A DNA stretch of 64,000 bases from Prochlorococcus marinus str. MIT 1013 (lineage in GTDB: Bacteria; Cyanobacteriota; Cyanobacteriia; PCC-6307; Cyanobiaceae), in assembly GCF_027359395.1 (NCBI RefSeq), contig NZ_CP114778.1, positions 992,001 to 1,056,000 of the forward strand, given 5' to 3'. Of the stretch, positions 31,096-47,910 are shown piece after piece. Below the pieces are notes generated by a model. The model worked only from the letters and a program-made list of their open reading frames with translations, had not been told where the DNA came from and did not search any database. Every line of letters starts with the position of its first letter. Within the stretch, counting starts at the first letter, position 1. Made by a program: the position numbers and the translations under genes.

Positions 31096-31175
31096 AGTTG
31101 TGAAATGCATTTTCAGTTGAATCTTTTTTAATTTGGACCTTGTTGCCTATCTCTAAGATATCAGTGCCGGGAATA

Positions 31176-33023
31176 TTAGATTAGATCTTGTTCTACATCC
31201 TTGAACGAGCTAAGTGCAATTGATACTCTCTCCATAACCTCTTGCCAATTATGTCGCTCTTTTTGTCTAAATAATCTCATTGATGGATACCAAAATGTTC
31301 GCTCGCCAGTAAGTCCCCAGTACCAAAAAGGAACATCTCTCAGCAGCAACCAAACTTTTTTACCCATTCCAGCCGCTAAAGGACCTGGTGAGCAGTCATT
31401 CGTAATAATTAAATCACAGTTTTCTATGATCGCAGCTGTCTCTGAGTAATCCAATATCCCATCAATCTGTTTCTGACAACTAACAAAATGCTTTTTAAAT
31501 GAACATTGTTCCAATTGTTCTGAACCATAACCTTTTTGGAGTGAAAGGAAAGTAATGTCATTCTTTTCTAAAAGCTTAGAGAATTCTTCTAAAGGAATTG
31601 ATCGTCCTTGATAAGTCTTTTCCAGCTTTTTACTTCCTTGCCAATTAATCCCAACGATTGGTCTTTTTTCATTAGAGAGAATCTTTCTCCATTTTTCTTT
31701 TAGTGGTTTTGTTGATGAAATATATGGAGTATTAATTACAGGATTATTCGGACTAACAGAAAAATACTTAAGTAAAGATAGTAATGGAATCCATTCTCCT
31801 TCTTTTCTTAGAAGAGATTCTTCACGTGTAAGTGGATTATCATGGATGCCAGAGTCCTTAATTAAGCTATGTAGTTTCTCTGGAGCATAGAAAGATATAT
31901 CTATTCCTTGTTGTTTAAGTGGCAATAAATAACGCATATAAAAAATGACGTCGCCAGGAGCTTGCTCACTAACAACTAAGAGCTTTTCTCCTTTAATTAA
32001 TTTCCTATTATCTACTTTTTTGATTTTTGGCTTTAAGTCAAGAGTTACTTTATCAAATCTAAATTCATAGGCCTCTAAACCATTTTTATAGTCGCCTTGA
32101 AGTAGTTGAAAAAATGAAAGATTAAAAGATGCTTCAGTGAACTCAGGATTAAGTTCAATAGCTTTGCGAGTTGAGACTTCTGCTTCTTGTAAGTTGCCAA
32201 GTTCTTTCAAAATGATTCCCAGATTGGAATGTGCTTCTGCGAAATCAGGTTTGATTTCAATCGCTTTGCAATATGACAATTCTGCTTCTTGTAAGTTGCC
32301 AAGATCTCTCAATATGTTTCCAAGATTGGAATACGCCTCTGAATAATCAGATTTGATTTCAATAGCTTTGCGAGTTGAGGCTTCTGCTTCTTTTAATTTG
32401 CCAAGATCTCTCAATATGATTCCCAAATTGGAATGCGCCACAGCTAAATTAGGATTGAGTTCAATTACTTTGCGTTGGGATAATTCTGCTTCTTTTAATT
32501 TGCCAAGATCTCTCAATATGTTTCCCAAATTGTAATGCGCCACAGCTAAATCAGGATTGAGTTCAATTGCTTTGCGTTGGGATAATTCTGCTTCTTTTAA
32601 CTTGCCAAGATCATTCAATATGCTTCCAAGATTGGAATGCGCCACAGCTAAATTAGGATTGAGTTCAATTGCTTTGCGTTGGGATAATTCTGCTTCTTTT
32701 AACTTGCCAAGATCTCTCAATATGTTTCCTAGATTGGAATGCGCTTTTGGGTAATCAGGATTCAGTTCAATTGCTTTACGACAAGAGATTTCTGCTTCTT
32801 GTAATTTACCAAGATTTTTTAATATTAATCCATAGTTAGTAAAAACCCTATGGTCTTTGAATCCTTGATTTATGAAATTTTGATAATATTTTATTGCTTC
32901 TGAAATATTTCCTTCTGAATGACACTTTAATGCTTGATTAATTATTTTTTCTTTAGATGGGTTGCTGTTTTTATTGCTTATTTCTTTCTTTTTAGATTTA
33001 CTCTGTTTTCCAAAGCCTTTCAT
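31176..33023 (-). CDS. TPR protein with GT9-like glycosyltransferase domain (paralogue C)
   Basis: 615 residues: basic N-terminus MKGFGKQSKSKKKE, then SKEKIINQALKCHSEGNISE and about eight TPRs, then the GT9-like domain (VSEQAPGDVIFYMRYLLPLK, SNEKRPIVGINWQGS, CDLIITNDCSPGPLAAGMGK, FWYPSMRLFRQKERHNWQEV). The leader seen in the other paralogues is absent; a decayed copy remains upstream at 33094-33186. In the nucleotide-site region the usual DT-x-x-AHLA is replaced by DCSPGPLA, the same change as in paralogue F. Confidence 0.86.
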   Translation of the reverse strand: MKGFGKQSKSKKKEISNKNSNPSKEKIINQALKCHSEGNISEAIKYYQNFINQGFKDHRVFTNYGLILKNLGKLQEAEISCRKAIELNPDYPKAHSNLGNILRDLGKLKEAELSQRKAIELNPNLAVAHSNLGSILNDLGKLKEAELSQRKAIELNPDLAVAHYNLGNILRDLGKLKEAELSQRKVIELNPNLAVAHSNLGIILRDLGKLKEAEASTRKAIEIKSDYSEAYSNLGNILRDLGNLQEAELSYCKAIEIKPDFAEAHSNLGIILKELGNLQEAEVSTRKAIELNPEFTEASFNLSFFQLLQGDYKNGLEAYEFRFDKVTLDLKPKIKKVDNRKLIKGEKLLVVSEQAPGDVIFYMRYLLPLKQQGIDISFYAPEKLHSLIKDSGIHDNPLTREESLLRKEGEWIPLLSLLKYFSVSPNNPVINTPYISSTKPLKEKWRKILSNEKRPIVGINWQGSKKLEKTYQGRSIPLEEFSKLLEKNDITFLSLQKGYGSEQLEQCSFKKHFVSCQKQIDGILDYSETAAIIENCDLIITNDCSPGPLAAGMGKKVWLLLRDVPFWYWGLTGERTFWYPSMRLFRQKERHNWQEVMERVSIALSSFKDVEQDLI

Positions 33024-33442
33024 TTTAAACCTTTGAGGTTTTTCTTATAATCATAATATTCTCCTAAAGCAATTTTAATTATTTTTTAATGTAATTTTGA
33101 TTTTTAGATCGACAAGAAGTAGTAGGAATATTTACGATCTCTTTAATTCCTCCTAAATCAAATGGAACAGAGAATGTTTTATACAGAAACATGCACCACC
33201 TTACCTCACTAAATGAATGAGAAATGTGTATGTAGGTTCAAAATATTGTGTAAATAGAAAAAATACAAATACATATTGTGTACGTATTGAATTCAGAATT
33301 GTGGAAAAGGACATATTTAATAACCTTAAATATTCAAAATAAATTTGTGAACCCTTTTTACGCATAGAACGAGGACTCAATGTCCCCCATAGGGGTGGGT
33401 AGGTCTTGGTTATATGTAAGGGTATTAACCTTTTCTCTATGG
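33024..33442. other. Non-coding stretch with a lost TPR leader and a C4/G4 hairpin
   Basis: On the minus strand, 33094-33186 still reads KTFSVPFDLGGIKEIVNIPT and ends in a stop, a relic of the TPR leader detached from paralogue C. At 33385-33395 lies CCCCATAGGGG followed by TGGGT, a hairpin motif also found at 44504-44515 and 53614-53624. No intact gene. Confidence 0.65.
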
Positions 33443-33676
33443 CTATTCCCATTGAGGCTTAATTCTTCGCCAGCCATTAGCCAAAAGGTTCTTCCATAGT
33501 TCTATCGCCAGATTCCTTCTCATCCTCTTACGACTCTTAAGTAGAGGTATACCGTTACGTTCAAGTCTACCTTTGTCGATAATGACTTTAGGATTCTGAT
33601 CCCAGCTCGACCAGTCATACCTAAACCTCAATATCCATACTCCACTAGGTTCCTTCAGCCATCCATCACGCTTCAT
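33443..33676 (-). CDS. DUF1651 family protein (copy 1)
   Basis: 77 residues: GWLKEPSGVWILRFRYDWSS, WDQNPKVIIDKGRLER, GIPLLKSRKRMRRNLAIELW, LLANGWRRIKPQWE. The W-x-x-FRxDxxSW, DPKVxxDxGR and LxxxGWRxxxPQW pattern is that of DUF1651, a family largely restricted to marine picocyanobacteria. Basic, probably nucleic-acid-associated (guess). The near-identical copy at 53640 differs by a handful of conservative changes, and flanking DNA is shared too. Confidence 0.85.
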   Translation of the reverse strand: MKRDGWLKEPSGVWILRFRYDWSSWDQNPKVIIDKGRLERNGIPLLKSRKRMRRNLAIELWKNLLANGWRRIKPQWE

Positions 33677-33930
33677 CCTTGGATTACTTATTAGTACAAT
33701 TATACTAATGTTAGCGTTTTTGTGTCCAGATTTCTGTCCAATTGATGTCCAAAACGCTCAACAACTATGCGAAGCGTTAAAAGATGACTTATCAAATCAA
33801 ACTATATCTTAATTATCTATAGCCTTGCGTAACTGATGAGGCAACAATTATGCATGTAAAAGTTGTCGTATAGCGAGAAGAGGAAACTGACGCAAAGAAC
33901 AGCTCCCTCAACTCTCATTGGCGTCCTGCT
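33677..33930. repeat. Flank of the DUF1651 cassette (shared with 53874-54120)
   Basis: Upstream of both DUF1651 copies the DNA follows the same order: TTATTAGTACAATT, a GTCCAGATT-CTGTCCAATT stretch, CGCTCAA-AA-TATGCGAAGCG, TTTGCGTAACTGATGA-like and GCGAGAAGAGGAA. With the gene this makes a cassette of about 480 bp present twice. Similarity is clear but imperfect. Confidence 0.75.
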
Positions 33931-33969
33931 CACTGGCAATCAACGTGCGAACATATTGGCTCAGAAATC

Positions 33970-34160
33970 AACCTTTATTGAAGACTACTTACTCAAAGGC
34001 ACAAATATATTTCTGCTTGCGAGAGTGTCTGGTCATAGCGTGAAAACTCTTATGGATACTTATGAAAGGATAGACATCAGAGAGAGTTAAGGAGCTAACA
34101 GATATTGACTACGGAAAGAGAAAGAACGTTCCTCAGATCATCAATTTATTTGAGGAGTAA
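33970..34160 (+). pseudogene. C-terminal fragment of a tyrosine recombinase gene
   Basis: Reads STFIEDYLLKGTNIFLLARV, SGHSVKTLMDTYERIDIRES and, after an indel, KELTDIDYGKR-like and PQIINLFEE. It is collinear with the last 65 codons of the integrase at 45030-46619. It contains the GHS motif and the Tyr region but no arginine box. It is fused to the right flank of DUF1651 cassette 1. Confidence 0.85.
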
Positions 34161-34198
34161 GCGCCAGAATCTTCTTTGCTCGATACACCGACACAAGC

Positions 34199-34309
34199 AT
34201 GAAATTTGTCCAAAAGCATTACTTCCATTACAGAGCTGATTAGTCAACAGAGATTCTTGGTAAAGGTAGAAAGATCAACCCAGCAGAGGAAAGTCTTAGG
34301 TGGACTTAG
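34199..34309 (+). pseudogene. Degenerate copy of the 39-aa integrase-linked ORF
   Basis: MKFVQKHYFHYRAD, an in-frame TAG, then STEILGKGRKINPAEESLRW. Same order as the intact ORF at 46655-46774, including its position directly after the integrase 3' end. Confidence 0.75.
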
Positions 34310-34932
34310 ACAAAAAGAATAATGATAATGATCTACAAGGTCAAATAGATGATTTGAATAATCAAATTGATGCTCTAAAGGTTGGAAGCCTTTATAAACT
34401 TATATCGATTAAAGATTATGATGGCAATGTTCATGGATTTCTTGGAGATGCTCCTACTGATGTGACAGGTGTATATAAATATCAAGAGAAGTTAGATATA
34501 AATAGTGATGGAGTTAATGAAGCAATTTTTACGAATAAAGAGAGTGGTCGTTGGGTGACAGCTTCTATAGATCCAGTTACTGGAACAGTTAATTACTCTA
34601 ATAATGGAGCAGGAGGAACAACAAGAGTTGTAGGTATTTATCAAGATCCATTAGTGGCAAATGGAACGGTAGAAAAAGATAGTATCTTTGACGGATCGAG
34701 AACCTTTATCAATGAGCTAAAACTCGATAACCTGATTCTTAAGACAGTGGGTGACTACAACGGTGATAGATTCCAAGAAGTGTATTGGAGTAAAGTAGAT
34801 AACTCTGCCTATTTAAGAGCTGTTATGCATGCAGATGGCAATATTCAATACGCTAATTATCAAAACCTGCAGCAAATGACTGATTACTTAACTGGCAATG
34901 GATTTGCAGATACTGTTGCTTTGATTGCTTAG
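34300..34932 (+). CDS. C-terminal-domain-like fragment of a large Ca-binding surface protein (210 aa)
   Basis: GTG start with a GAGGAAAG ribosome-binding-like sequence, inside the integrase-linked repeat. N-terminal short coiled coil (LQGQIDDLNNQIDALK), then a domain with YKYQEKLDINSDGVNEAIFT and TVGDYNGDRFQEVYWSKVD, two DxNxDG-type calcium loops, ending in TDYLTGNGFADTVALIA. From memory the ending resembles the conserved C-termini of giant RTX-like proteins of marine Synechococcus/Prochlorococcus. It may be a stand-alone protein or a detached module. Confidence 0.65.
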   Translation: MDLDKKNNDNDLQGQIDDLNNQIDALKVGSLYKLISIKDYDGNVHGFLGDAPTDVTGVYKYQEKLDINSDGVNEAIFTNKESGRWVTASIDPVTGTVNYSNNGAGGTTRVVGIYQDPLVANGTVEKDSIFDGSRTFINELKLDNLILKTVGDYNGDRFQEVYWSKVDNSAYLRAVMHADGNIQYANYQNLQQMTDYLTGNGFADTVALIA

Positions 34933-35055
34933 ATGAGGAAGCTGCTTAGGGACATCCTCCTATTATTCACTTTTAGAAACCCAGAACTGATACATCCCTC
35001 TTAAGGTATTTGGATGTTTTGCTTAAACTTTTTCCAGCTGGATATTGCATTGTTT

Positions 35056-36756
35056 TTATTTTTTGATTATCTCTTTTTTAATTTCGCTCAGCGGAAAGGC
35101 CCAATCATTCCTTGTGATTTGTCTAAATATCTTCATAGATGAAAACCAATAACTTTGGATATCTTTTACTCCATATGGCCAATGACTGTGTTTTGGAAGA
35201 ATAACTTTAGTTTTCATATCCAATGCTCCAGAAAGAGCTGCTGTAACATTATCAATAGTGACTATGTGATCGCAGGCAGTTATTAAGGAGGCTAAACCAT
35301 CAATGTCATTAAAACAATCAAGTTCTTCTATCTCTAATATTTCTACTCCTAAATTTTTTCTAACATTTTTGATTTCTTCTTTTACATCACCATATTGAAG
35401 ATTAACAAAGTTTACACCAGGAGAATAGAGTCCTGAAATCATTTTTTCTAATGAGATTAAGCTTTCAGGATATCTTTTACTTTTTGATGTCCATGAAATT
35501 CCCACAAGTATTTTATGTTCACTTCTTAGTAATCTTTTTCTATATTCTTTAGTTTTTTCCTTATTAGCTAGTAAAATAATTTTTTTTGATGAAATAAAAC
35601 TTTCTACTGTTTTTCTTAAATATTGTGCTAACGAACCGAATGGAAGATGATAATCATATTCTTTCTCATCTAAATTTTCTTCTTTACTAATGAAACCTAT
35701 TTCATGATCGATTGACCTTTGTAAAATAGGTATTAATCTTCTATCAAGTTTAATTATTAATCGATCTACATTATCTTGTAGGTCTGGTATTAATGTTGAA
35801 AAATATAATTGATCACCTAGCCCTTGTTCTGCCCATAGTAATAAACAACCTCTTTTCCCCGGATTCCATAGTGGTTTATTAGTTTTTAATCTTAACTTCA
35901 CATTTTTACTTCTTTTCCATCTCCATTCATATTTTTCCCACCCTTCTTTGAAAAACTTTAATTGTAGAAGTGTATGAGAAAGATTGAAATGTGCTTCGGT
36001 AAAATTAGGATTCAGTTCAATTGCTTTGCGGTATGACAATACTGCTTCTTCTAGTTTACCAAAATCTTTCAATATGATTCCAAGATTGGAATGAGCCTTT
36101 GCGTAATCAGGTTTTATTTCAATTGCTTTGCGTAGTGATAATTCTGCTTCTTTTAATTTACCTAGATAGCTCAATATGCCTCCCAGATTGGAATATGCTT
36201 CTGCGAAGTTAGGATTCAGTTGAATTGCTTTGCGTTGAAATAATTCTGCTTCTTTTAATTTGCCAAGATCTCTCAATACATTTCCCAGATTGTAATGCGC
36301 ATCTGCGTAATCAGGTTTTATTTCAATTGCTTTGCGTTGAGATAATTCTGCTTCTTCTAATTTGCCAAGATTTTTTAATATGACTCCATAATTAGAAAAA
36401 ACCCTGTGATCTTTAATACCTTTATTAATGAAATATTGATAATATTTTGCTGCTTCTGAAATCTTTCCTTGTGAATGAAATTTAAATGCTTGATTAATTA
36501 TTTGTTCTTTTGAAGGTTTAGAAGGAATGTTAGTGGAAATAGAAATATTCTCTTTTATTTCACCTAAAGCAAATGGTACGGGGAATGTTTGTATTTCAGT
36601 GATTTGATTCTTTCTTTGTTCTTGAGAAGGTTTGGATTGATTATTGGTGTTAGGAGTAACATTTTCTTTGATTTCTTCTAAAGCAAATGGTAGTGGTAAT
36701 TCTTTAAACTTATTGACTTTCTTTTTCCCTTGATCTGTTTCACTAGGTTCTTCCAT
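35056..36756 (-). CDS. TPR protein with second-type GT9-like transferase domain (paralogue D)
   Basis: 566 residues. It has two consecutive leader copies (ELPLPFALEEIKENVT and TFPVPFALGEIKENISI), about five TPRs, then a transferase domain different from that of A, C and F: WEKYEWRWKRSKN, LLLWAEQGLGDQLYFSTLIP, HKILVGISWTSKSKRYPES, LASLITACDHIVTIDNVTAA and KVILPKHSHWPYG. This is the GT9-like type found at the end of many TPR proteins in methylotrophs and cyanobacteria. It lies 12 bp downstream of paralogue E, so likely cotranscribed. Confidence 0.87.
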   Translation of the reverse strand: MEEPSETDQGKKKVNKFKELPLPFALEEIKENVTPNTNNQSKPSQEQRKNQITEIQTFPVPFALGEIKENISISTNIPSKPSKEQIINQAFKFHSQGKISEAAKYYQYFINKGIKDHRVFSNYGVILKNLGKLEEAELSQRKAIEIKPDYADAHYNLGNVLRDLGKLKEAELFQRKAIQLNPNFAEAYSNLGGILSYLGKLKEAELSLRKAIEIKPDYAKAHSNLGIILKDFGKLEEAVLSYRKAIELNPNFTEAHFNLSHTLLQLKFFKEGWEKYEWRWKRSKNVKLRLKTNKPLWNPGKRGCLLLWAEQGLGDQLYFSTLIPDLQDNVDRLIIKLDRRLIPILQRSIDHEIGFISKEENLDEKEYDYHLPFGSLAQYLRKTVESFISSKKIILLANKEKTKEYRKRLLRSEHKILVGISWTSKSKRYPESLISLEKMISGLYSPGVNFVNLQYGDVKEEIKNVRKNLGVEILEIEELDCFNDIDGLASLITACDHIVTIDNVTAALSGALDMKTKVILPKHSHWPYGVKDIQSYWFSSMKIFRQITRNDWAFPLSEIKKEIIKK

Positions 36757-36768
36757 TGGTTTTTATTA

Positions 36769-39225
36769 CTATTTATTCACAAGGTTACTATACATAATTT
36801 CTAGTTCATTAGTAAATTTAGAAGAATCGAAAAATGATAATTTATTTTTATTTCTAAGTTTTTCACGAATTGTTTTGAGTTTTTCTTTATTAGTTGCAAG
36901 TTCATATGCTAAAGATTCATATTCTGAATAGCTCGTTGTAACTAATTCATTGAGATTACAAGCATTTAGTATGCTTGCTGCTATTCTTGCACTGTAACTC
37001 TTGCCTAGCAAAGTTATAACTGGTACATCAGAAGACAAGGCGAAATTTGCTGTATTTGCAGCATTAAAATTGAAAGTATCAAGAAATAAATCAGCACATG
37101 AATGTCTTGAGAAATGATCATCTAATTCCATATTTTCAGCAAATATTATTCTTTCTTTATCTATGCCATGATGAGTTAATTCAGCATACAAGTTATTCAT
37201 TGCAGCCTGATGTGGTTTTTTTATCCATAAAACACTTCTTTCTACTTTATGTAATAACCTGAGCCATATATTAAATTCTTTTCTAGTTATTTTATGGATA
37301 GAATTAAAGCATGTAAATACGAAGCCATCTGGTGGAAGTCCTAATTGTTCTCTGCTGAATTTGTTAACTGATATTTTCCTTGTATTATCATGGGGAAAAG
37401 AGCTATTAGGAAGGTGTAATACTTTTTCAGTATAAAATTTCTTATTTTCCTCTGGAATTATTACTTTATCAGCAAGAATATAATCATAGGAATCTGATCC
37501 AAGTGAACCAGCATAACCAAGATAGTTTATTTGAATAGGTGCTACTCGATAAGAGAAAATAGAAATCCTACTATATTTTGTTATACCATTAAGATCTAAT
37601 GCTATGTCAATTTGATCATTTCTTGCAAGTTTAACGATATCAAGATCAGATAGATTATGTATTTCTCTAAAAACAGAAACAGCTTTCTGTACTCTTATTG
37701 TATAATCATCTTTCATATTAGATAGACTATATGCATAGATCTCGAATTTAGATTTATCATGTAATTCTAGTGTTCTTAGTAGCAGATGAGTTAATGGATG
37801 ATTTCTGAAATCAGCTGAAAAGTAACCGATCTTAATTTTATTATTATTGTTGTTATGATTGATATTTGGTAATTCTTCTCTTTTATGTTCTTGATTATAT
37901 TTAATTGCACGTTTTAAGTGATTTAATGGGTTGTCCTCTATATACATTAATGCTAAAGGACCTATAGCCTTTCCCTCTATTCCTATTCTATTTAAATCAG
38001 GTAAATACTTTTCTATCTCATCCCACATGCAAAGCCTGGATAAAGTGTAAATTATATTGGAAATTAGGTGAATTTGTTTGGGATCTATTTCTAAGGATTT
38101 TTGATACGCTTGATTTGCTTCTTCTAATTTATCTAAATCCATCAAGATGGCTCCCAGGTTGGAATACGCATCAGCGAAATCAGGCTTAAGATCAATCGCT
38201 TTGCGTGTAGATATTTCTGCGTCTTGTGATTTGCCAAGATCCATCAATATTGATCCCAGGTTAGAATGCGCCATTGCGTACTTAGGATTAATTTGAATTG
38301 CTTTGCGAGTGGATATTTCTGCGTCTTTTAATTTGTCCAGATCTCTCAATATGTTTCCAAGATTTAAATGAGCCTCTGCCAATTCAGGCTTAAGTTCAAT
38401 TGCTTTACGTGTATATACTTCTGCGTCTTGTGATTTACCCAGATCACTCAATACGCTTCCTAGATTTAAATGAGCCTCTACGAAATCAGGTTTGAGTTCA
38501 ATTGCTTTGCGTAGTGATAACTCTGCTTCTATTAATTTGCCAAGTTCTTTCAATATATTTCCCAGATTGTAATGCGCCTCTGCGTAATTAGGATTCAGCT
38601 CAATTGCTTTGCAATATGACAATTCTGCTTCTATTAATTTGCCAAGTTCTTTCAATATATTTCCCAGATTATAATGCGCTTCTGCGTAATTAGGATTCAG
38701 CTCAATTGCTTTGCAATATGACAATTCTGCTTCTTTTAATTTGCCAAGATCGCTAAATATATTTCCCAGATTATAATGAGCTTCTGCGTAATTAGGATTC
38801 AGCTCAATTGCTTTTCTCGTGGAGGTTTCTGCTTCTTCTAACTTGCCAAGATCTATTAATATGTTTCCCAGATTGGAATGTGCTTCTGCGAAGTCAGGCT
38901 TAAGTTTAATTGCTTTGCGAGTTGAGATTTCTGCTTCTTGTAATTTACCAAGATCTTTCAATATGATTCCATAATTACAGAATACTTTGGTGTCTTTATA
39001 TCCTTGAGAAAGGCAATATTTATAATACCTTGAAGCTTCTTTAATATTACCTTGTAGATGATATTGAATTGCTTGATTAATTATTTGTTCTTTAGAATAT
39101 TTTGAAGAAGCATTCGTAGAAAGAGCAATATTCTCTTTCGTTTTCGTGAAAGTGAATGGAACTGGGAATGTTTTTATTTCAGTGAAGTTATTCTTTCTTT
39201 GTTCTTGTTTGTCTAATTTTTCCAT
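36769..39225 (-). CDS. TPR O-GlcNAc-transferase-like (SPINDLY/GT41) protein (paralogue E)
   Basis: 818 residues from ATG 39225 (MEKLDKQEQRKNN), chosen to match paralogues; the frame extends to 39261. It has a leader (TFPVPFTFTKTKENIALS), about ten TPRs including two virtually identical consecutive units (NPNYAEAHYNLGNILKELGK twice), then a GT41 catalytic region: IGYFSADFRNHPLTHLL, IDIALDLNGITKYSRISIFS, APIQINYLGYAGSLGSDSYD, FVFTCFNSIHKITRKEFNIW, DLFLDTFNFNAANTANFALS and TLLGKSYSARIAASIL. Bacterial OGT homologues modify Ser/Thr of proteins such as flagellins with GlcNAc. Acceptor unknown here. Confidence 0.92.
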   Translation of the reverse strand: MEKLDKQEQRKNNFTEIKTFPVPFTFTKTKENIALSTNASSKYSKEQIINQAIQYHLQGNIKEASRYYKYCLSQGYKDTKVFCNYGIILKDLGKLQEAEISTRKAIKLKPDFAEAHSNLGNILIDLGKLEEAETSTRKAIELNPNYAEAHYNLGNIFSDLGKLKEAELSYCKAIELNPNYAEAHYNLGNILKELGKLIEAELSYCKAIELNPNYAEAHYNLGNILKELGKLIEAELSLRKAIELKPDFVEAHLNLGSVLSDLGKSQDAEVYTRKAIELKPELAEAHLNLGNILRDLDKLKDAEISTRKAIQINPKYAMAHSNLGSILMDLGKSQDAEISTRKAIDLKPDFADAYSNLGAILMDLDKLEEANQAYQKSLEIDPKQIHLISNIIYTLSRLCMWDEIEKYLPDLNRIGIEGKAIGPLALMYIEDNPLNHLKRAIKYNQEHKREELPNINHNNNNNKIKIGYFSADFRNHPLTHLLLRTLELHDKSKFEIYAYSLSNMKDDYTIRVQKAVSVFREIHNLSDLDIVKLARNDQIDIALDLNGITKYSRISIFSYRVAPIQINYLGYAGSLGSDSYDYILADKVIIPEENKKFYTEKVLHLPNSSFPHDNTRKISVNKFSREQLGLPPDGFVFTCFNSIHKITRKEFNIWLRLLHKVERSVLWIKKPHQAAMNNLYAELTHHGIDKERIIFAENMELDDHFSRHSCADLFLDTFNFNAANTANFALSSDVPVITLLGKSYSARIAASILNACNLNELVTTSYSEYESLAYELATNKEKLKTIREKLRNKNKLSFFDSSKFTNELEIMYSNLVNK

Positions 39226-39367
39226 ATATTTTACTACAGTTAAAGAAACAATAAAATACATACATATATATTTCCTTTATAAGTGATCAAGATCTATTAA
39301 ATATTTCTTCTTAATACTTTGCGACTGCAACGCTTCAAATGCTGCTTTTATTTATTGATTCTGAACT
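39226..39367. repeat. TPR-upstream repeat, copy 2
   Basis: Matches 30948-31095 and 42402-42545: TTAAAGAAACAATAAAATAC, GTGATCAAGATCTATTAAAT, TTCTTCTTAATA and the TTGATTCTGAACTCGC end. To its right it continues into the remnant of the small divergent ORF and then into the RNA polymerase gene. Confidence 0.75.
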
Positions 39368-39480
39368 CGCCATTATTATAGTGAAAGAAGCATTTAAACT
39401 ATCTCGCACTCGATTGGCATCGAGAATAAAGAAATGGGTCACTGCGAACATCGAAAAGAAGTAGCTCGTGATTTGGTTGG

Positions 39481-40731
39481 TTGAAGCCTTGGAACTGCGA
39501 TGCAAGAGGAAGAATGTATAGCCAACAGTCATTTCTTCATCCACAATCATCCGATCTAGAACGCGGAATCATCAGGTTTAAAGAAGGCTGCAAACTCAAC
39601 AAAAGAGGAGAAGAGAATGCAGCCCAAGCGGTAGGAGCTGCATTCCGTGGAAACAAAGTTTCTTATGAAGAGAGAAGTCGTTGGACATACGACAACAAAG
39701 AACTCATAAAAGTAATAACGAAAGACCCTCTCGAGATGAGAGAACTTTGGCAAGACTGTGATGAACCTTGGCAGTTCTTACAACTTGCACGAGAGTTCAA
39801 TCGAGTTTGTTTCCTTGGGGAAACGAATGAATGGAAAGTAGGAATAGGAGCCGACTCAACAGCATCAGGTCTTCAACTCTTAAGTGGAATGAGGAGAGAT
39901 CCAAAGGGGATGCAATTCACTAACTTCTTACCACCTGACAACCCAAACGATCCGCCTCAAGATGCTTACAAAGAGGTCTTAAGAATTGCAAGAAGGATTG
40001 TCTCTGAAGACCCTGCAACCGAATGGCTTGCACAGCATTTACATGACAGAGAACTAGGCAAAAAGATCCTTATGAAAGCGATATATGGAGCATCAACACA
40101 AACTTACCGATACGACATAAAAGAGTTTTTTCAGAAACGAGGTTTATTTCCTGAAACCATTAACTACACTCCTCATATTCCATATCTCACCACAGTTCTA
40201 GAAGAGGCAAGTCGACAAGTATTTCCAATAGCATTCGAGACTTTGACTTGGCTTAAAAAGCTATGGAAGATAGCGAAAGGTAATGGATCAAGTGCGGCGA
40301 TATGGACTACTCCCAACAACGACCTAATCCATATCTAGAAAAAGAAAGTCGATGTCATAGAAGTGAAAACAACACACTTAGGGAAAGTCAGCATTGGGAC
40401 TGGAGAAGGACAGAGAACTGATTACAAAGCAATAGAGAAAGCACTTGCTCCATCATTCGTACATAGCTATGACGCAGCCGTCCTTAAGTCTTCCTTCCAA
40501 GATTGGCATCAACCAATAGCTTTAATACATGATTGTTTGAAGGTTCTGCCTAACGATATGGACAAAGCAAAAGAAAGGATCAAACATGGATTTGTTCAAG
40601 TTTGCAAAGGCGATCCATTGGCTCGTTTGGCGGATGAGATGGAAGTATCATCAGAGCAATTACCAAGGCTTACAAAGGGTTCTGGAGACCTCTCAGCCGT
40701 GCTTGAGTCGTCTTCGTATATGTTTAATTAG
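39481..40731 (+). pseudogene. T7-type single-subunit RNA polymerase, 5'-truncated with internal amber
   Basis: Two successive frames in the same register, split by TAG at 40336-40338, encode the palm/fingers part of a phage-type RNA polymerase. Motif A region KPWNCDARGRMYSQQSF, then GIGADSTASGLQLLSGMRRD (catalytic Asp), DRELGKKILMKAIYGAS (the Arg, Lys and Tyr spaced as R627/K631/Y639 of T7), PSFVHSYDAAVL, PIALIHDCLKVLP (His-Asp pair like H811/D812), and a C-terminal LSAVLESSSYMFN end. The roughly 400-residue N-terminal promoter-recognition domain is missing. The active-site residues survive, so decay looks recent. Confidence 0.9.
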
Positions 40732-40787
40732 AAGCTACTTCCATTGACTTGTCCTCTCCACAATCATCAACAAAGAGACCTGAAATA

Positions 40788-42401
40788 TCAGATGAGATCA
40801 TGTTTTACATCCTGGAAAGAGCTAAGTGCGATGGATACTCTCTCCATAACTTCTTGCCAATCATGTCGTTTTTTTTGTCGGAATAACCTCATCGAGGGAT
40901 ACCAAAATGTAGTGTCTCCAGTAAGCCCCCAATACCAAAAAGGTACATCTCTTAGTAATAACCAAACCTTCTTACCCATTCCTGCAGCTAAAGGACCCAG
41001 GCTGCAGTCATTAGTAATAATCAAATCACAGTTTTCTACGATTGCCGATGTTTCTGAATAATCCCATATGCTGTCTATTTGATCTTGGCAACTAACAAAA
41101 TGTTCTTTAAATGAACATTTCTCCATTTGCTCAGAGCCGAAACCTTTTTGGAATGAAATCAATCGAATATCATTTTTTTCTAGAAGCTTTGAGAATATTT
41201 CTAAAGGAATTGATCGCCCTTGATAAATCTTTTCCATTTCTGGATTTCCTTGCCAATTAACACCAACTATTGGTCTTTTTTCTTTGAAGAGAATATTACG
41301 CCATTTTTCTTTTAGTGTTTTTGTTGATGAAATGTATGGGGTATTAATTACAGGATTATGAGGGTTCACAGAGAAATACTTAAGTAAAGATAGTAATGGG
41401 ATCCATTTCCCTTCTTTTACAAGACTGCATTGCTCAGGGGAAAGAGGGTTAGAGTGTATGCCTGAGTCTTGAATCAAGTTGTGTAGCTTTTCAGGAGCAC
41501 AAAAAGAAAGGTCTATTCCTTGTTGTTTAAGAGGCAACAAATAACGCATATAAAAAATCACATCTCCTGGAGCTTGCTCACTAACAACTAAAAGCTTTTC
41601 TCCCTTTTGTAGTTTTTCCTTAGTTACTTTTTTTATTTTTGTCTTACCGTGAGGAATAATAGGTTTATTTATTTTAAATCTAAATTCATAGTTTTCTAAA
41701 CCATTTCTATAGTCGCCTTGAAGTAGTTCAAGATGTGAAAGATTCCAAGATGCTTCATTGCAATCAGGATTCAGTTCAATTGCTTTGCGTTGTGATAATT
41801 CTGCTTCTTTTAGTTTTCCAAGATCTTTCAATACGACTCCCAAATTGGAATACGCCTCTGCGAAATCAGGTTTGATTCCAATTGCTTTGCAATAGGACAA
41901 TTCTGCTTCTTCTAATTTGCCAAGATCTTTCAATATGATTCCCAGATTGTAAAGTGCCTCTGCGTGATCAGGTTTAAGTTCAATTGCTTTGCGATAGGAC
42001 AATTCTGCTTCTTCTAAGTTTTCAAGATCGCTCAATATGCTTCCTAGATTGGAATGTGCCTTTTCATAATCAGGATTTAGCTCAATTGCTTTGCGGTATG
42101 ACAATTCTGCTTCTTCTAAGTTTCCAAGATTTGCCAATATTGTTCCATAATTGGAAAAAACTCTGTGATCATTGAATCCTTCATTGATGAAATATTGATA
42201 ATATTTTGCTGCTTCTGAAATGTTTCCCTGTGAATGATATTGAAATGCTTGATTAATTATTTGTTCTCTAGAAGGTTTAGTAGGTGTATTTGTATTAATA
42301 GTAAGATTTTCTTCGTTTACTTCTAAAAGAAAAGGCACAGGGAAGATTTTTATATCTGCTAATTTGTTCTTTCTTTGTTCTTGTTTATCTGATTTTTCCA
42401 T
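40788..42401 (-). CDS. TPR protein with GT9-like glycosyltransferase domain (paralogue F)
   Basis: 537 residues starting MEKSDKQEQRKNK. Leader IFPVPFLLEVNEENLTI, about five TPRs, then the GT9-like domain very close to paralogue C (VSEQAPGDVIFYMRYLLPLK, EKRPIVGVNWQGN, CDLIITNDCSLGPLAAGMGK, FWYPSMRLFRQKKRHDWQEV). Both C and F lack the AHLA His found in paralogue A. Its 3' flank is shared with paralogues A and C and joins the RNA polymerase 3' end. Confidence 0.87.
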   Translation of the reverse strand: MEKSDKQEQRKNKLADIKIFPVPFLLEVNEENLTINTNTPTKPSREQIINQAFQYHSQGNISEAAKYYQYFINEGFNDHRVFSNYGTILANLGNLEEAELSYRKAIELNPDYEKAHSNLGSILSDLENLEEAELSYRKAIELKPDHAEALYNLGIILKDLGKLEEAELSYCKAIGIKPDFAEAYSNLGVVLKDLGKLKEAELSQRKAIELNPDCNEASWNLSHLELLQGDYRNGLENYEFRFKINKPIIPHGKTKIKKVTKEKLQKGEKLLVVSEQAPGDVIFYMRYLLPLKQQGIDLSFCAPEKLHNLIQDSGIHSNPLSPEQCSLVKEGKWIPLLSLLKYFSVNPHNPVINTPYISSTKTLKEKWRNILFKEKRPIVGVNWQGNPEMEKIYQGRSIPLEIFSKLLEKNDIRLISFQKGFGSEQMEKCSFKEHFVSCQDQIDSIWDYSETSAIVENCDLIITNDCSLGPLAAGMGKKVWLLLRDVPFWYWGLTGDTTFWYPSMRLFRQKKRHDWQEVMERVSIALSSFQDVKHDLI

Positions 42402-42545
42402 ATATTTTATTCCTGTTAAAGAAACAATAAAAAACGTACATAGATATATCCTTTCTAGCTGCTCGAGATCTATTAAAAATTTCTTCTTAATAGTTTACTA
42501 CGACAATGCCTCAAATGCTTCTCTTATCTATTGACTCTGAACTTG
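42402..42545. repeat. TPR-upstream repeat, copy 3
   Basis: More diverged copy of the 30948-31095 and 39226-39367 segments (TTAAAGAAACAATAAAAAAC, GAGATCTATTAAAAATTTC, CTCAAATGCTTCTCTTATCT). It contains the start of the small ORF at 42506. Confidence 0.7.
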
Positions 42546-42640
42546 CCAATATTATAGAGAAAGAAGCATTTAAAACTTCCTCACCCTCGATTGGCATCGA
42601 GAATAAAGAAATGGGTCACTGCGAATATCGAAAGAAGTAG
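42506..42640 (+). CDS. Small ORF divergent from TPR paralogue F (44 aa)
   Basis: MPQMLLLSIDSELANIIEKE, AFKTSSPSIGIENKEMGHCE, then YRKK. Related DNA exists at about 39346-39470, where one more A gives the ending HRKEVARDLVG, so this copy is probably shortened by a one-base deletion. After it both copies share about 35 bp reading WLKPWN in the polymerase frame, then diverge at 42674 (the other copy goes on as RNA polymerase). Possibly a phage-derived early gene. Confidence 0.45.
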   Translation: MPQMLLLSIDSELANIIEKEAFKTSSPSIGIENKEMGHCEYRKK

Positions 42641-42921
42641 CTCGTGATTTGGTTGGTTGAAGCCTTGGAACTGAAGACGTAAGGCATCTCAAGTAATACC
42701 TATAATTTCAACCCTGTTAGCTAGACGCAATTAGAACGGCGGATACATAAACCTCTCCAAAGTGAAAAGACAACTAAAGAAGGTGAAACACAGGATGTAT
42801 AAGGCGGCGCCAACCGTTTAAGACGGTTGGAGAAACTTCCATTTACATCCAAGTGAATACTTCATAAAACTATCTATCTACACATCACTCTCATCTTTAA
42901 ATAGTTAGCAACTATCCACAC
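42641..42921. other. Gene-free stretch with an inverted repeat
   Basis: Begins with about 33 bp of the RNA-polymerase 5' junction, then non-coding. An 8-bp inverted repeat CCAACCGT/ACGGTTGG (42810-42830) precedes the small-gene run; it lacks a T-tract. Confidence 0.45.
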
Positions 42922-43299
42922 GTGTGGAATAATTATATGAACAATAAACTAGAGAACGTTCTACTCCCTTTAAACAAACAAGGTGATTTAGACCAAAGAT
43001 TTAAAGCAAGCATAAAGCGAATAATGATAGACATGAGTAGTGAAGCTGCTCATGTATTATCAGATTTCTATATAAAGACATCAGATCTTCAAAAAAGTGC
43101 GAGCAAAGCAGGTCTGGAATTAGTAGAAGCTATTAATAAGGAATCAGACAGACTTTCAAGCCGAGAACACAGACACCCTGATGACGAATATGGATGGATG
43201 GGGAAGGCACTTAGAAAAAGTACTGTTGAGATACTCAAGAAAGTTGGTTTCAAAGAAAAGAATGCCAGCAAAATAATCAAAGCAGCAGAGTTCAAATAA
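42922..43299 (+). CDS. Hypothetical island protein (125 aa; start may be ATG 42937)
   Basis: Soluble, basic and helix-rich: MNNKLENVLLPLNKQGDLDQ, IMIDMSSEAAHVLSDFYIKT, DDEYGWMGKALRKSTVEILK, KVGFKEKNASKIIKAAEFK. The C-terminal lysine-rich helices hint at DNA or RNA binding, but no domain is recognised. First gene of a compact plus-strand run that leads towards the recombinase. Confidence 0.6.
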   Translation: MWNNYMNNKLENVLLPLNKQGDLDQRFKASIKRIMIDMSSEAAHVLSDFYIKTSDLQKSASKAGLELVEAINKESDRLSSREHRHPDDEYGWMGKALRKSTVEILKKVGFKEKNASKIIKAAEFK

Positions 43300-43365
43300 T
43301 CTTTAAGAACTCAAAGTAGTTGGTCAGAGCAACTCTCGGTCTCTCATCTATCTGAACTGGGAAGG

Positions 43366-43797
43366 ATGAATGAAGCTGGTATTAGACAAGCCATAGCCGA
43401 ATCATCAAGCGCTCAAACTATCTTTATAGGAACAGAGTTCGGCGGCATACCAGGCAAGAACTGGATAGATGTTCCAGTTAGAAGATTCGAAGAAATTAGG
43501 AGATTCACCCCTAAGACAATCAGGGAAAATAACCCTTTGTCTGAGTTAGATAGGATTTCCGATCACCAAGACATCCTTACAATCGAGTCTCTTGAAGTTA
43601 AAGAAGCAACTCAGGAATCGATAGCCAGAGAGATCGCCTCATTAGCACAACAACTAAACACTAAAGAAGTTTGGAGGGAAAAAGAAATCGTAGAGATACT
43701 AAAAGAAGCAGAGCATGAACTCATATCTATTGGACACATGGTTATGCAACCACTTGAGACAGTACCTTCAAAAAAAAATGAACCCCTACCCAAATAA
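43366..43797 (+). CDS. Hypothetical island protein (143 aa)
   Basis: ATG start after a GGAAGGA ribosome-binding sequence. N-terminal part MNEAGIRQAIAESSSAQTIF, GTEFGGIPGKNWIDVPVRRF, then a long acidic helical region (SIAREIASLAQQLNTKEVWR and VEILKEAEHELISIGH). No family recognised. Its 3' end overlaps the start of the next ORF by 20 bp. Confidence 0.6.
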   Translation: MNEAGIRQAIAESSSAQTIFIGTEFGGIPGKNWIDVPVRRFEEIRRFTPKTIRENNPLSELDRISDHQDILTIESLEVKEATQESIAREIASLAQQLNTKEVWREKEIVEILKEAEHELISIGHMVMQPLETVPSKKNEPLPK

Positions 43798-44783: not shown

Positions 44784-44820
44784 AGATCAGTTTTATTAGT
44801 TTCAAAAGTTAGGTAATCTT
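44784..44820. repeat. 37-bp direct repeat, copy 2 (other copy 24982-25018)
   Basis: Same orientation as the copy upstream of the flavoprotein gene, with 21 leading identical bases and a further TTAGGTA-n-TCTT. The two copies bracket 19.8 kb that includes the TPR array and the phage-type polymerase. Confidence 0.5.
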
Positions 44821-44891
44821 GGAAGAGGTTTGGATCCCTAGCCTAAGAGCTATCCAAACTTTATCCAAACCACACATTTTCGACAAGATCC

Positions 44892-44933
44892 ATGTCAGAC
44901 AAAGATATCTCGTATTGGCTAATGAAGAGTTAA
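44892..44933 (+). pseudogene. Truncated 5' end of an EVE-domain gene
   Basis: MSDKDISYWLMKS then stop. The intact EVE gene at 54337 begins MSVKEINYWLMKSEPDAYS, and the bases just before both ATGs are also alike (CATTTTC...ATCC-ATG). Similarity ends at the Ser codon. Confidence 0.75.
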
Positions 44934-44973
44934 AGTTTAGTGGCTTAAAGAGATCTCAAGGAATCGTCAATAC

Positions 44974-44994
44974 TTACTCTAACTTTACTCTAAC
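44974..44994. repeat. Tandem TTACTCTAAC repeat, copy 1 (identical copy 54295-54315)
   Basis: Two TTACTCTAAC units with one T between them, 35 bp before the recombinase start. The identical 21 bp stands 21 bp before the intact EVE gene. Candidate recombinase arm sites or a shared promoter element. Confidence 0.6.
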
Positions 44995-45029
44995 TTTTAT
45001 GATACGTTTGGGGAGATTTAACATTCCCC

Positions 45030-46619
45030 TTGCCAAAGCTCCTAGATAAAAAGAAAGTTCTTAATGGAAGAGGCGAGGTTGTTACTTGGTCAGATTCAAA
45101 TGTAGGCAAATACTTCTACAGGGAAAAGATCTCAGGTCAGAAAAGGTATCGAAATAAATTAATACCCAATGCCAACACCATGGATGAAGCAGTCTCCATG
45201 TGCATGGATATTGCAATTCAACTAAGAGAAGAAGATCCTCACCATCTATCCAAAGATGCAAACCCTAAAGAAAAGATCTCGACTGAATCAACTCAAGGAC
45301 TTTCATTGGTTGAAAGAGAGGAGAAATTACTAAGAAGAAAAGAAAGATTAGCCAGAGAAGAGAGAAAAAAAGAGCGACCAAAGATGACGACAGAGAAAGC
45401 CTTAGATGACTGGCTGGCTGGACAGAAGAAACGAGTTGATGCTGGAACCTTTGAAGAGAACAGTTACTTAGCTAAATACCATGCAGCTCTTCATCTCAAA
45501 AGCTATCTCAAGTACAAGAAAATATTCTTTACCTCTCAGATATCAACAGGTACATTTGACGAATATATCGAATTCAGATTCCAGAAAACTCAAAGAAGGA
45601 TTGTCATCCACAGAGAACTAGCAGTCATAGGTGAATGGATCAAAAGCTACCTAGTCAGATTCAAATATATTCCAGCTCATCTATGGCTTGATGGTCAGTT
45701 CTTACCACGTATTGAAGTCAGACAAATAGATAAAGATGCTAACCCTGCTATCAATCCAGACGACTGGAAAGTCATCCTTGATTACACAAGGGATTTGTGG
45801 AGGAAACAGGCTTACGAGCCAACTCTAATGACGACGAGCAATCAATTTCATAAGAACATTAATACACAAAGAAAGTCTGAGAAAAAGAGTATCTGGTTTA
45901 GAGAAATGTTCTGGCATTGGATATTAGTTGCAAAGAAAACAGGTATGTCACCCGAAGAGATTTGCAAACTTAAATGGAAGAATGTCGAGATTAGAGATGT
46001 TGGAAGATATAGCCAGTCCAAGGCAGAGCAAGAGATATATGACCTAGAGCAAGAGGGTATTGAAGTTATCCCTTCTCTCCACGATCCGAAGTCTGGAGAT
46101 TGGATTGCTGACCCTAGCCACATAGGAAGAGAGGAACGATTAATCGCTTACATCTCAACCATCAGAAAGAAAACATCCCAGCCTAGAGAAATACCATGCA
46201 ACCTTGGAACCGAATTCAGAAGATGGATGAAATTCTTGAAGACATCAGGGTATGTAATCCGTGGAGATGACTATGTCTTTGCTCAGGTTCACAACGAAAT
46301 GAAGCAACCAAGCCAAGCCAGAATCAGGCAAGCTTGGAGAAAGATTGTTGATGGATTAATGCTTGAAGGGAAGCTAAAGGGTCATAAATTCTCAGATCGT
46401 AAGTACACCCTTTACAGCATGAGGTCTACATTTATTGAAGACCACTTACTCAAAGGCACAGATATTTTTCTGCTTGCGAGAGTGTCTGGTCATAGCGTAA
46501 AAACGCTAATGGATACGTACGAAAGAATGGATATTAGAGAAAGAGCAAAAGAGCTAACAGATATTGACTACGGAAAGAGAAAGAATGCACCTCAGATCAT
46601 CAACTTATTTGAGGAGTAA
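45030..46619 (+). CDS. Divergent tyrosine recombinase/integrase (529 aa)
   Basis: Large phage-integrase-family protein. A basic N-terminal region with a Lys/Arg/Glu helix (EREEKLLRRKERLAREERKK), a core-binding region (TTEKALDDWLAGQKKRVD), then the catalytic domain. Box II reads YSMRSTFIEDHLLKGTDIFL (Arg kept, the usual HxLR His is Tyr), followed by ARVSGHSVKTLMDTYERMD (His of GHS and the Tyr nucleophile kept). The box I position is GMSPEEICKLKW, where Arg normally follows G-L/M, so the first catalytic Arg appears to be Ser. Its 3' end is copied elsewhere in the island. ATG start. Confidence 0.9.
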   Translation: MPKLLDKKKVLNGRGEVVTWSDSNVGKYFYREKISGQKRYRNKLIPNANTMDEAVSMCMDIAIQLREEDPHHLSKDANPKEKISTESTQGLSLVEREEKLLRRKERLAREERKKERPKMTTEKALDDWLAGQKKRVDAGTFEENSYLAKYHAALHLKSYLKYKKIFFTSQISTGTFDEYIEFRFQKTQRRIVIHRELAVIGEWIKSYLVRFKYIPAHLWLDGQFLPRIEVRQIDKDANPAINPDDWKVILDYTRDLWRKQAYEPTLMTTSNQFHKNINTQRKSEKKSIWFREMFWHWILVAKKTGMSPEEICKLKWKNVEIRDVGRYSQSKAEQEIYDLEQEGIEVIPSLHDPKSGDWIADPSHIGREERLIAYISTIRKKTSQPREIPCNLGTEFRRWMKFLKTSGYVIRGDDYVFAQVHNEMKQPSQARIRQAWRKIVDGLMLEGKLKGHKFSDRKYTLYSMRSTFIEDHLLKGTDIFLLARVSGHSVKTLMDTYERMDIRERAKELTDIDYGKRKNAPQIINLFEE

Positions 46620-46654
46620 GAGTCAAATTCTTAACTCGACACACAGATACGAGC

Positions 46655-46774
46655 ATGAAATATATTCAAGACCATTATTTTCATTATAGAGCTGATGAGT
46701 CCACGGAGATACTTGGTAAAGGTAGAAAGAATAAGCCAGCAGAGGAAAGTTTGAGGTGGATTCGGTCTTCTTGA
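46655..46774 (+). CDS. Small ORF linked to the recombinase 3' end (39 aa)
   Basis: MKYIQDHYFHYRADESTEIL, GKGRKNKPAEESLRWIRSS. Intact version of a sequence also found, broken, at 34199-34309 and 49760-49849. Its persistence in three places suggests it belongs to the mobile unit. Confidence 0.6.
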   Translation: MKYIQDHYFHYRADESTEILGKGRKNKPAEESLRWIRSS

Positions 46775-46798
46775 ATAGAATTCAAGAAGCAATGAGTC

Positions 46799-46933
46799 TT
46801 AACTATTCATACAAGAATAAATATCAAATTCAAGTTGAATCCAATGGCTTTGTTCTGAACTTATTCCCCATAATTCACCTCGATCTGAAGCTTCTAAAAT
46901 GGATCTATAAAATTCTGGAATATCCTTTGACAT
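46799..46933 (-). CDS. Small soluble protein (44 aa)
   Basis: MSKDIPEFYRSILEASDRGE, LWGISSEQSHWIQLEFDIYS, CMNS. The composition is highly protein-like, acidic with several Trp/Tyr. It starts 4 bp after the stop of the exported protein upstream, so cotranscribed. The longer frame to 46999 would overlap that gene, hence this ATG. Confidence 0.6.
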   Translation of the reverse strand: MSKDIPEFYRSILEASDRGELWGISSEQSHWIQLEFDIYSCMNS

Positions 46934-46937
46934 TGTT

Positions 46938-47111
46938 TTAGTTGATTGTTGAAGCAGAAATATTCTCCTCACAAACAGCATCTCCTTCTTCACAGACAAC
47001 CTCAGCTTTGTCTAAGTGTGAGCTACAACCCATCGCCATAACTGGTGATACACCAAGAACTGTGTGTAGAGTAGTTGCCGAAAACAGAAGGTAAGGAATG
47101 ATTTTTTTCAT
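46938..47111 (-). CDS. Small exported Cys-containing protein (57 aa)
   Basis: Signal peptide (MKKIIPYLLFSATTLHTVLG), then GVSPVMAMGCSSHLDKAEVV and CEEGDAVCEENIS. Three Cys, acidic mature part. The MAMGC context might be a lipobox-like site, but the fit is poor. ATG start. Confidence 0.6.
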   Translation of the reverse strand: MKKIIPYLLFSATTLHTVLGVSPVMAMGCSSHLDKAEVVCEEGDAVCEENISASTIN

Positions 47112-47309
47112 AGCCAGCTTTAGATTTTCATCAATGATCTATCAACTAATTACCAACTGTGAGGTTTCAATGTTCGGTTAACTACTTAAAGCAGATAGGA
47201 ATAGAAACTATTTATGAATAAACTACTCCCAATAAAAGTAACTTATAGAATCAGAGTTACTGATTTTGGCATCCCTCCTATCTATTGATCGACAAATAAA
47301 TCAAGGAAC

Positions 47310-47474
47310 ATGAGTCACTTCCAATTTACTGATGAACAATTTATCGAGATCAGAGAAATCTGGAGAGATATCAATTCTCAATGCAAATTGCTGCAAGAGC
47401 AAACTGGTTGTCCTGATAGCGAGATAGTCAAAATGATTGACTCTGCGAAGAGTTATTGGGAAAACAAGAGTTAA
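47310..47474 (+). CDS. Small soluble protein (54 aa)
   Basis: MSHFQFTDEQFIEIREIWRD, INSQCKLLQEQTGCPDSEIV, KMIDSAKSYWENKS. ATG after a TCAAGGA ribosome-binding-like sequence. Helical and charged. Convergent with the gene at 47485, whose C-terminal SEVIWKKL echoes the YWENK ending only superficially. Confidence 0.6.
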   Translation: MSHFQFTDEQFIEIREIWRDINSQCKLLQEQTGCPDSEIVKMIDSAKSYWENKS

Positions 47475-47484
47475 AAAAAACTAT

Positions 47485-47712: not shown

Positions 47713-47910
47713 TAGAATGAATTTGATTAACTTCTTAGCGAGGGAGGGAAATTGCTATGCAAAACAATTTCCCTAGCTCTAGTTGGGTGTCAAAAAGGCG
47801 CTTTGCAAAACCTTTTTAAGCACTTGCAGGTGATTGATCAACCCACACAACGTATTAAATATTTTGGCTAGTCAACTTAGCTATTGAGTTGATTAACCGG
47901 TACGGTTTTC

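Follow-up and report, generated by a model that had tools for sequence, protein, structure and literature searches.

A decayed T7-type RNA polymerase gene in a Prochlorococcus chromosome, probably a remnant of an integrative mobile element

RNA polymerases of the phage type are familiar from phages, organelles and plasmids. The locus described here raises the question of how a piece of such an enzyme came to lie in a chromosome of the Prochlorococcus type, where a preliminary description had correctly placed it and explained it by past capture of a podovirus-like or plasmid polymerase. We analysed a stretch of 64,000 nucleotides of Prochlorococcus marinus str. MIT 1013 that contains the relic (the window; its features are listed in Table 1) together with related loci in other genomes. 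According to this analysis an integrative mobile element once carried the polymerase gene whose C-terminal half survives as the relic, a reading to which we assign a probability of about 0.73.

The relic reading frame encodes 416 residues, which comprise the fingers/palm region and the C-terminal half of the enzyme. In profile searches PF00940 matches on either side of the internal TAG with E values of 1.3e-25 and 8.1e-11, and the RNA polymerase family phrog_414 matches the two pieces with 1.1e-60 and 7.3e-22. All eight T7 residues that were checked (R425, D537, Y571, R627, K631, Y639, H811 and D812) are kept in the relic, and the same eight are kept in the intact polymerase of G003, a genome of the same genus. 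The identification as a T7-type polymerase relic with its active-site residues in place is thereby confirmed. The best profile match is indeed a single-subunit RNA polymerase, and no full-length gene was found elsewhere in the genome, a single contig of 2,046,712 bases in which PF00940 has one match, the main relic itself.

As noted before, the relic contains one TAG. It is the only in-frame stop, while 2000 two-base-block shuffles of the stretch lead to an expectation of 25 stops on average and 12 at minimum. Eight other window ORFs of at least 150 aa end in TAG, and the one tRNA found in the window is a tRNA-Val. The alignment begins at residue 403 of the intact G003 relative. The N-terminal 402 residues are missing, and a search of the window with four intact relatives revealed no convincing piece of the N-terminal half, which agrees with the absence of an N-terminal domain stated earlier. 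Readthrough of the amber codon would therefore restore no polymerase. The extent formerly given for the relic holds with respect to the reading frame on the + strand. At its 5' boundary, however, the relic is joined near 39490-39497 to sequence from upstream of a TPR gene, as can be seen from the 87.5% identity between 39226-39497 and 42402-42673, and the relic is part of a larger decayed element to which INT1 and cl3 also belong.

Table 1. Features of the window that belong to or adjoin the elements E1 and E2 (positions are those of the window).
Feature	Position	Strand	Remarks
Second, more decayed polymerase 3' end	26991-27210	+	with stop and frame break; tblastn 73% and 77% protein identity in two pieces
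DUF1651 gene copy, end marker of older element	33443-33676	-	fused to INT1 fragment; 79% to DUF1651 of the G003 element
INT1, 3' fragment of tyrosine recombinase, element E1	33863-34148	+	67.5% and 56.5% to L063 recombinase, two pieces
Single-subunit (T7-type) RNA polymerase relic	39481-40731	+	residues ~403-813 of intact homologue; TAG at 40336-40338
TPR gene between polymerase and cl3	40788-42401	-	tail to tail with polymerase 3' end; Pfam TPR
cl3 gene, split	42922-43797	+	ORFs 42922-43299 and 43366-43797; tblastn 32%, E 8e-36 to G003 gene
Attachment repeat between E1 and E2, copy of EVE-domain gene 5' end	44857-44930	+	76% over 74 bp to 54302-54375
Element E2, polymerase-free	44931-54301		INT2, photolyase 48257-49756, DoxX-like 50011-50370, small ORFs, DUF1651 53640-53873
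INT2, tyrosine recombinase of E2, open	45030-46619	+	529 aa; PF00589 29.2 bits, cut-off 27.1
Other attachment repeat, at EVE-domain gene start	54302-54375	+	EVE gene 54337-54810, PF01878 4.4e-53

Cyanopodoviruses such as Syn5, S-CBP42, SS120-1, P-SSP2 and NATL2A-133 also possess a T7-type polymerase with the same catalytic residues (checked for Syn5). Their enzymes differ from the relic, however: the five that were aligned are 28.2-31.1% identical to it, a truncated sixth one is 28.6% identical over 91 columns, and they belong to a separate clade. A tblastn match was obtained for 2555 phage records, all below 60% identity, and the best 40 of these 2555 do not exceed 30.5%, with Syn5 at the top. 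Capture from a plasmid was considered and rejected in view of three weak matches among 72,556 plasmid records, all of them below 27% (22.9-26.1%).

Within the family 38 of 400 genomes contain a polymerase match, and within the genus eight of 41. Relatives that are 44-57% identical to the relic, which we call clade A, were found in 15 other genomes of the family including G003, and in a phylum-wide sample of 386 genomes matches of this level are confined to the same family. Three genomes from another family of the phylum (G639 with locus L191, G668 and G716) encode full-length T7-type polymerases of 818-835 aa with 27-28% identity.

The polymerase tree comprises 37 rows (IQ-TREE, LG+C20+F+G4; the midpoint root serves for drawing only), after eight of 45 rows had been left out as short pieces, a wrongly chained recombinase, a near-duplicate and the truncated S-CBP3 frame. 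The chromosomal polymerases and the relic (15 rows) split from the cyanopodovirus, T7 and Cd1 polymerases with a support of 100/99, and the same split is obtained without the long-branch row L059 (14 rows, 99/99). The relic and the G003 copy are sisters (96/91), and the genera g5 and g35 interleave within clade A. Three polymerases from host assemblies, L053, L054 and L055, group with the cyanopodoviruses, so the tree can tell chromosomal and cyanophage groups apart. In L053 (G032:C8) and L055 (G065:C3) the cyanopodovirus-clade polymerase is followed by a gene run common to both, and these two contigs are probably real phage. A podovirus-like source of a known kind, as formerly assumed, is not supported by identities of this level and by a position outside the cyanopodovirus and T7 groups, and the plasmid source did not hold up either. 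An integrative element with its own recombinase is better supported than podovirus capture.

Besides clade A the chromosomal polymerases include a second, deeper clade, whose members have 866-1087 aa where complete. In L045, L046, L051, L057 and L058 (with L063 and L078) parts of a run of small genes, c12-c8-c13-c11-c35-c7-c34, lie downstream of the polymerase. Parts of it are shared by the second clade and some clade-A loci, and it is without convincing Pfam or PHROG match.

The neighbourhoods of 14 clade-A polymerases were read (L034-L047, where L043 and L044 are nearly identical, yet counted as two); a fifteenth locus, L078 of G354, is a contig of 3 kb and is not among them. In 11 of the 14 loci the polymerase gene is uninterrupted and encodes 809-831 aa; it is broken in L036, L038 and L047. 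Intact copies, for which a search elsewhere had been proposed, thus do occur in other picocyanobacteria. The G003 enzyme matches phrog_414 over 810 residues (E 1.3e-137), while its RPOL_N score of 22.9 bits is below the cut-off of 30.1. A tyrosine recombinase is encoded upstream on the same strand in 12/14 loci, at a distance of up to 1.3 kb in ten of the 14 and of 5.2 and 6.7 kb in L039 and L045, respectively; none was recognised at L041 and L047. The recombinases of L038 and L039 score just below the PF00589 cut-off.

Downstream of the polymerase, again on the same strand, a small gene named cl3 is present in eight of the 14 loci (within 0.8 kb in four, at 2-15 kb in four), and three loci contain a different small gene, cl8. 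The cl3 protein has about 290 aa and is predicted to be helical. For one member weak PHROG matches were obtained (E 0.002), and no convincing Pfam or PHROG match and no phage, plasmid or PDB-fold match was found. The structure models of cl3 and c14 (mean pLDDT 75.6 and 79.7) gave no PDB fold match at E <= 0.001. The element of G003 (L034, 5279-14171) encodes a DUF1651 protein with a PF07864 match, c14 and c10 on one strand and cl3, polymerase and recombinase on the other. Unlike the cyanopodoviruses, these six genes include neither a virion nor a DNA-replication gene.

Distances of 1-6 kb separate the parts in the window, which would suit a polymerase gene that was horizontally captured on its own and pseudogenised later, with recombinase and cl3 nearby by chance. 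Other genomes, in some of which the ends are mapped, contain this trio with its order unchanged, which speaks against such an independent capture; we regard it as highly improbable.

The integrative element is further characterized by its ends. The G003 element is located at the start of glyQ and measures 8,911 bp from repeat to repeat. Its end repeat is an 18-bp word (16/18 alike) spanning the first glyQ codons, and at the empty glyQ site of G002 this word occurs once, which makes it a clean single-copy site. The element of G166 is also located at the glyQ start (10,653 bp). In G294 the element sits at the end of purK (10,551 bp), and on its far side the purK end is repeated over 63 bp with 81% identity. 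Of 30 other matching genus genomes 29 stop matching within this repeat or a few bases past it; the one relative that was fetched, G218, has 2.1 kb of other DNA between the flanks and no clean empty site. The G127 element, located at the end of rpsD, spans 22,495 bp between perfect 23-bp repeats. The gene was recognised as rpsD because G245 has an S4 gene in the corresponding position. For 22 of 26 other matching genus genomes the match sets in no more than 13 bases from this repeat, and G167 has a near-empty rpsD site. With the recombinase start codons taken as first-in-frame guesses, the 5' ends of the recombinase genes lie 100 (G003), 106 (G166), 59 (G294) and 102 bp (G127) from the repeat. 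All mapped attachment sites are within protein-coding genes, namely glyQ, purK, rpsD and the EVE-domain gene of the window.

The genome to which the window belongs has a short glyQ element elsewhere (L182, G000:C1:780001-786000), with both end words and a TPR-GT41 glycosyltransferase gene as its only gene. G006 possesses a short glyQ element with a trypsin-like protease gene and without polymerase. The end words of these two elements show 1-3 mismatches. Among the genus genomes the recombinase is also seen without the polymerase (recombinase in 12/41, cl3 in 9/41, polymerase in 8/41). Since recombinase and cl3 occur without a polymerase and E2 of the window lacks one as well, the polymerase is not needed in every element.

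Nine recombinases were compared with respect to their catalytic residues. The Lys, the second Arg and the Tyr are present in all nine, the GH in eight and the first Arg in four. INT2 has the Lys, the second Arg, the GH and the Tyr, and a Ser at the position of the first Arg; the same Ser in an otherwise conserved box is seen in L044, L046, L051 and L063, that is in five of nine sequences with INT2 included. The His before the second Arg is replaced by Tyr in all nine. Judged from these two replacements, the activity of the recombinases is not certain. The missing first Arg in five of nine sequences and the purK site, which is not clean, slightly lower our confidence in the element reading.

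No tRNA was found at a mapped end. In the 14 loci ARAGORN detected a single tRNA and a single tmRNA, both away from the mapped ends, and seven further stretches yielded none; Rfam yielded one tRNA in seven loci. Attachment at a tRNA was also considered for the tRNA-Ser adjacent to the G003 element and for the tRNA-Val of the window, and was dropped as no partial copy of either was found apart from short matches due to chance.

Tycheposons and 'cryptic elements' of Prochlorococcus were reportedly described by Hackl et al. in 2023. They are likewise integrative elements of picocyanobacteria with a tyrosine recombinase and cargo. The 'cryptic elements' of Hackl et al. 2023 are mentioned in PMC10187409, and the polymerase elements might be among them. 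If the polymerase elements were tycheposons or phage satellites in the strict sense, this would fit their occurrence in the same hosts, the tyrosine recombinases with weak PF00589 scores and the apparent cargo, i.e. the restriction-type helicase gene held by the G127 element and glycosyltransferase-type genes. According to PMC10872708, however, tRNA borders are a feature of tycheposons, whereas the polymerase elements use attachment sites in coding genes at their mapped ends and carry a polymerase gene. We consider this classification quite improbable.

PMC10187409 describes a new picocyanobacterial integrase family whose genes precede tRNA-Phe or tRNA-Cys, in many cases with a small serine recombinase nearby. 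These integrases, too, are tyrosine recombinases and occur on variable islands of Prochlorococcus and Synechococcus, but no tRNA was found at the mapped ends of the polymerase elements. In the literature covered, which is titles and abstract openings with most subscription papers outside, no polymerase-bearing integrative element is described for picocyanobacteria. Linear plasmids of fungal mitochondria are non-viral elements with a phage-type polymerase. They differ in that they reside in a eukaryotic organelle, are linear, encode a DNA polymerase and do not integrate by a tyrosine recombinase.

How do these elements relate to the relic? In the window the polymerase-free element E2 (about 9.4 kb) appears to sit at the EVE-domain gene. 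The match between the two attachment repeats has an E value of 6.5e-8 in the whole genome, and the 5' end of INT2, again with a first-in-frame start, is 100 bp from the repeat. The photolyase and the DoxX-like gene are the apparent cargo of E2, which adjoins the EVE-domain gene. On the outer side of E2 lies an older element, E1, and it is to E1 that the polymerase belongs; that the relic is a relic of an element is very probable. On the + strand the INT1 fragment, the polymerase relic and cl3 follow each other in the order known from the G003 element, with TPR and other genes in between. The INT1 fragment shares 84.7% DNA identity with the 3' end of INT2 over 339 bp, the stretch 33443-33921 is 78% identical in DNA to 53640-54119, and the two halves of the window cl3 match the cl3 profile with 2.4e-30 and 7.8e-15.

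The outer end of E1 was not located. A direct repeat of 37 bp (89%) is present at 24982-25018 and 44784-44820 and is a candidate for the far end; the first of these copies is closely followed by the start of a gene resembling fumarate reductase/succinate dehydrogenase. Since the outer end was not found and the parts are separated by TPR and other genes, E1 could be a patchwork of at least two elements.

The second, more decayed polymerase 3' end that had been noticed 13.5 kb from the relic is real, the distance being 13.5 kb end to end and 12.5 kb start to start. It has the same tail-to-tail arrangement with a TPR gene (27272-29191) as the main relic, and the gaps between polymerase 3' end and TPR gene are 56 and 61 bp in the two window copies. 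The tail-to-tail arrangement is also found in G032 (105 bp) and G001 (136 bp), while in G002 the TPR gene is 1.3 kb from the polymerase fragment. In the stretches read of G028, G030 and G036 no TPR match was found near the fragment. A TPR gene thus accompanies the polymerase fragment in three of the six other genus genomes with fragments. On the minus strand of the window a cluster of six TPR genes with long repeats extends over 27272-42401. This cluster is possibly a recombination hotspot: its genes repeat one another at 72-95% DNA identity, and recombination among genes so much alike could carry a polymerase scrap along.

From this arrangement we propose the following history. E1, with recombinase fragment, polymerase and cl3 in this order, and E2, with recombinase, photolyase and DUF1651, are neighbours at the 5' end of the EVE-domain gene. 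TPR genes would have inserted in E1 and recombined through it, with the loss of the 5' part of the recombinase and the N-terminal half of the polymerase, and recombination of the TPR genes would have carried the second polymerase 3' end along.

The dN/dS value of the relic is 0.087 in comparison to the G002 fragment (110 codons), 0.22 in comparison to G028, and 0.22 (47 codons) and 0.39 (26 codons) in comparison to the second window copy; the row for G030 looked misaligned and was left out, and comparisons of the relic with intact genes are at or near saturation. A comparison of the gene of G294 with the longer of the pieces into which the G331 gene is broken gave a value of 0.135. The low values of 0.087 and 0.135 indicate that the polymerase was under selection until recently.

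The elements could alternatively be remnant prophages, derived from temperate podovirus-like phages of unknown lineage that lost their virion genes and kept an ordinary phage polymerase. An annotated integrase is located within 1 kb after the RNA polymerase in three cyanopodovirus stretches (Syn5, S-CBP42 and SS120-1), phrog_414, the best profile of the relic, is a phage family, the second-clade polymerases L048, L049 and L061 are accompanied by integrases like those of cyanopodoviruses, and the G127 element holds an exonuclease-like gene. A relative of INT (42% to L051, 35% to INT2) is moreover encoded on the 17.7-kb IMG/VR contig L198, at a distance of about 5 kb from the gene of a virion structural protein of 996 aa, and part of the recombinase family may accordingly be viral. 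No PF00940 match was found on this contig, however. The order in the elements, recombinase before polymerase, is the reverse of that in these cyanopodoviruses, and the INT profile does not match the three cyanophage integrases. The mapped elements of G003, G166 and G294 have a size of 8.9-10.7 kb, and in the proteins scanned, which left out several small ORFs of G166 and G294, there was no capsid, portal, terminase or tail match. A tblastn search of 50,697 phage records with INT and cl3 of G003 yielded no match. Scans of IMG/VR did not recover the clade-A polymerase: identities do not exceed 28% among the 80 of 593 confirmed loci listed, and three scans specific to single members produced no match or a single one of 25%. 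Given this balance, a prophage origin of the elements is unlikely, while a viral past of the polymerase/recombinase module is possible.

Two further candidates for viral genes were rejected. The scaffold-like 'head assembly' match in the G127 element covers part of a protein at its C-terminal stretch; the start of this protein resembles a signal peptide, and it was not taken for a structural gene. The cl3 match on the IMG/VR contig L199, which has phage-like genes, concerns 60 residues inside a 1741-aa gene and was judged to be due to chance.

For the integrative element with its own recombinase the parts and their order, the ends, one clean and one near-empty site, the conserved catalytic residues of the polymerase and its clade were observed directly, and its function can be sketched from these. 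The recombinase would excise the element and insert it into the ends of housekeeping genes. The polymerase would read promoters of the element only, making its expression independent of the host polymerase; the chances that such private transcription is the role of the enzyme are about even. In a search of 12 elements or stretches no shared or well placed promoter motif was found (14-base words with up to two mismatches, at least three times on the polymerase strand, two block shuffles per element), and recurring 14-base words exceeded the shuffle counts in most of the 12. One may guess that cl3 and c14, both small proteins, assist by binding DNA.

T7-type enzymes also prime replication in T7 and in mitochondria. 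Here the polymerase might prime or drive replication of the excised element more than gene expression, a role that would be in line with the iteron-like repeats seen by eye upstream of c14 in G003 and with the lack of a recognised replication protein in this element. Against it stands that none of its six genes encodes a DNA polymerase or primase, and we consider it rather unlikely.

T7-like phages are known to shut off transcription of their host during infection. Private transcription of the element would pay off, for example, while a lytic phage does so, though a link between the polymerase elements and phage infection is doubtful at present. In its widest and equally tentative form the proposal is that marine picocyanobacteria harbour non-viral integrative elements with private phage-type transcription, which would be silent to the host, switch on in a self-amplifying manner, e.g. 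under a block by lytic cyanophages, and escape with surface-sugar or defence cargo; several polymerase clades and different recombinases would have been recruited separately.

A whole clade of phage-type polymerases thus resides in the chromosomes of the most abundant photosynthetic cells of the ocean, tied to a recombinase and to mapped insertion sites. The elements offer a reason for the polymerase 3' scraps beside TPR genes in several genomes, and they provide a set of new single-subunit polymerases. For the islands of Prochlorococcus and Synechococcus they suggest a concrete and testable route of gene movement, and possibly a link between phage infection and island mobility.
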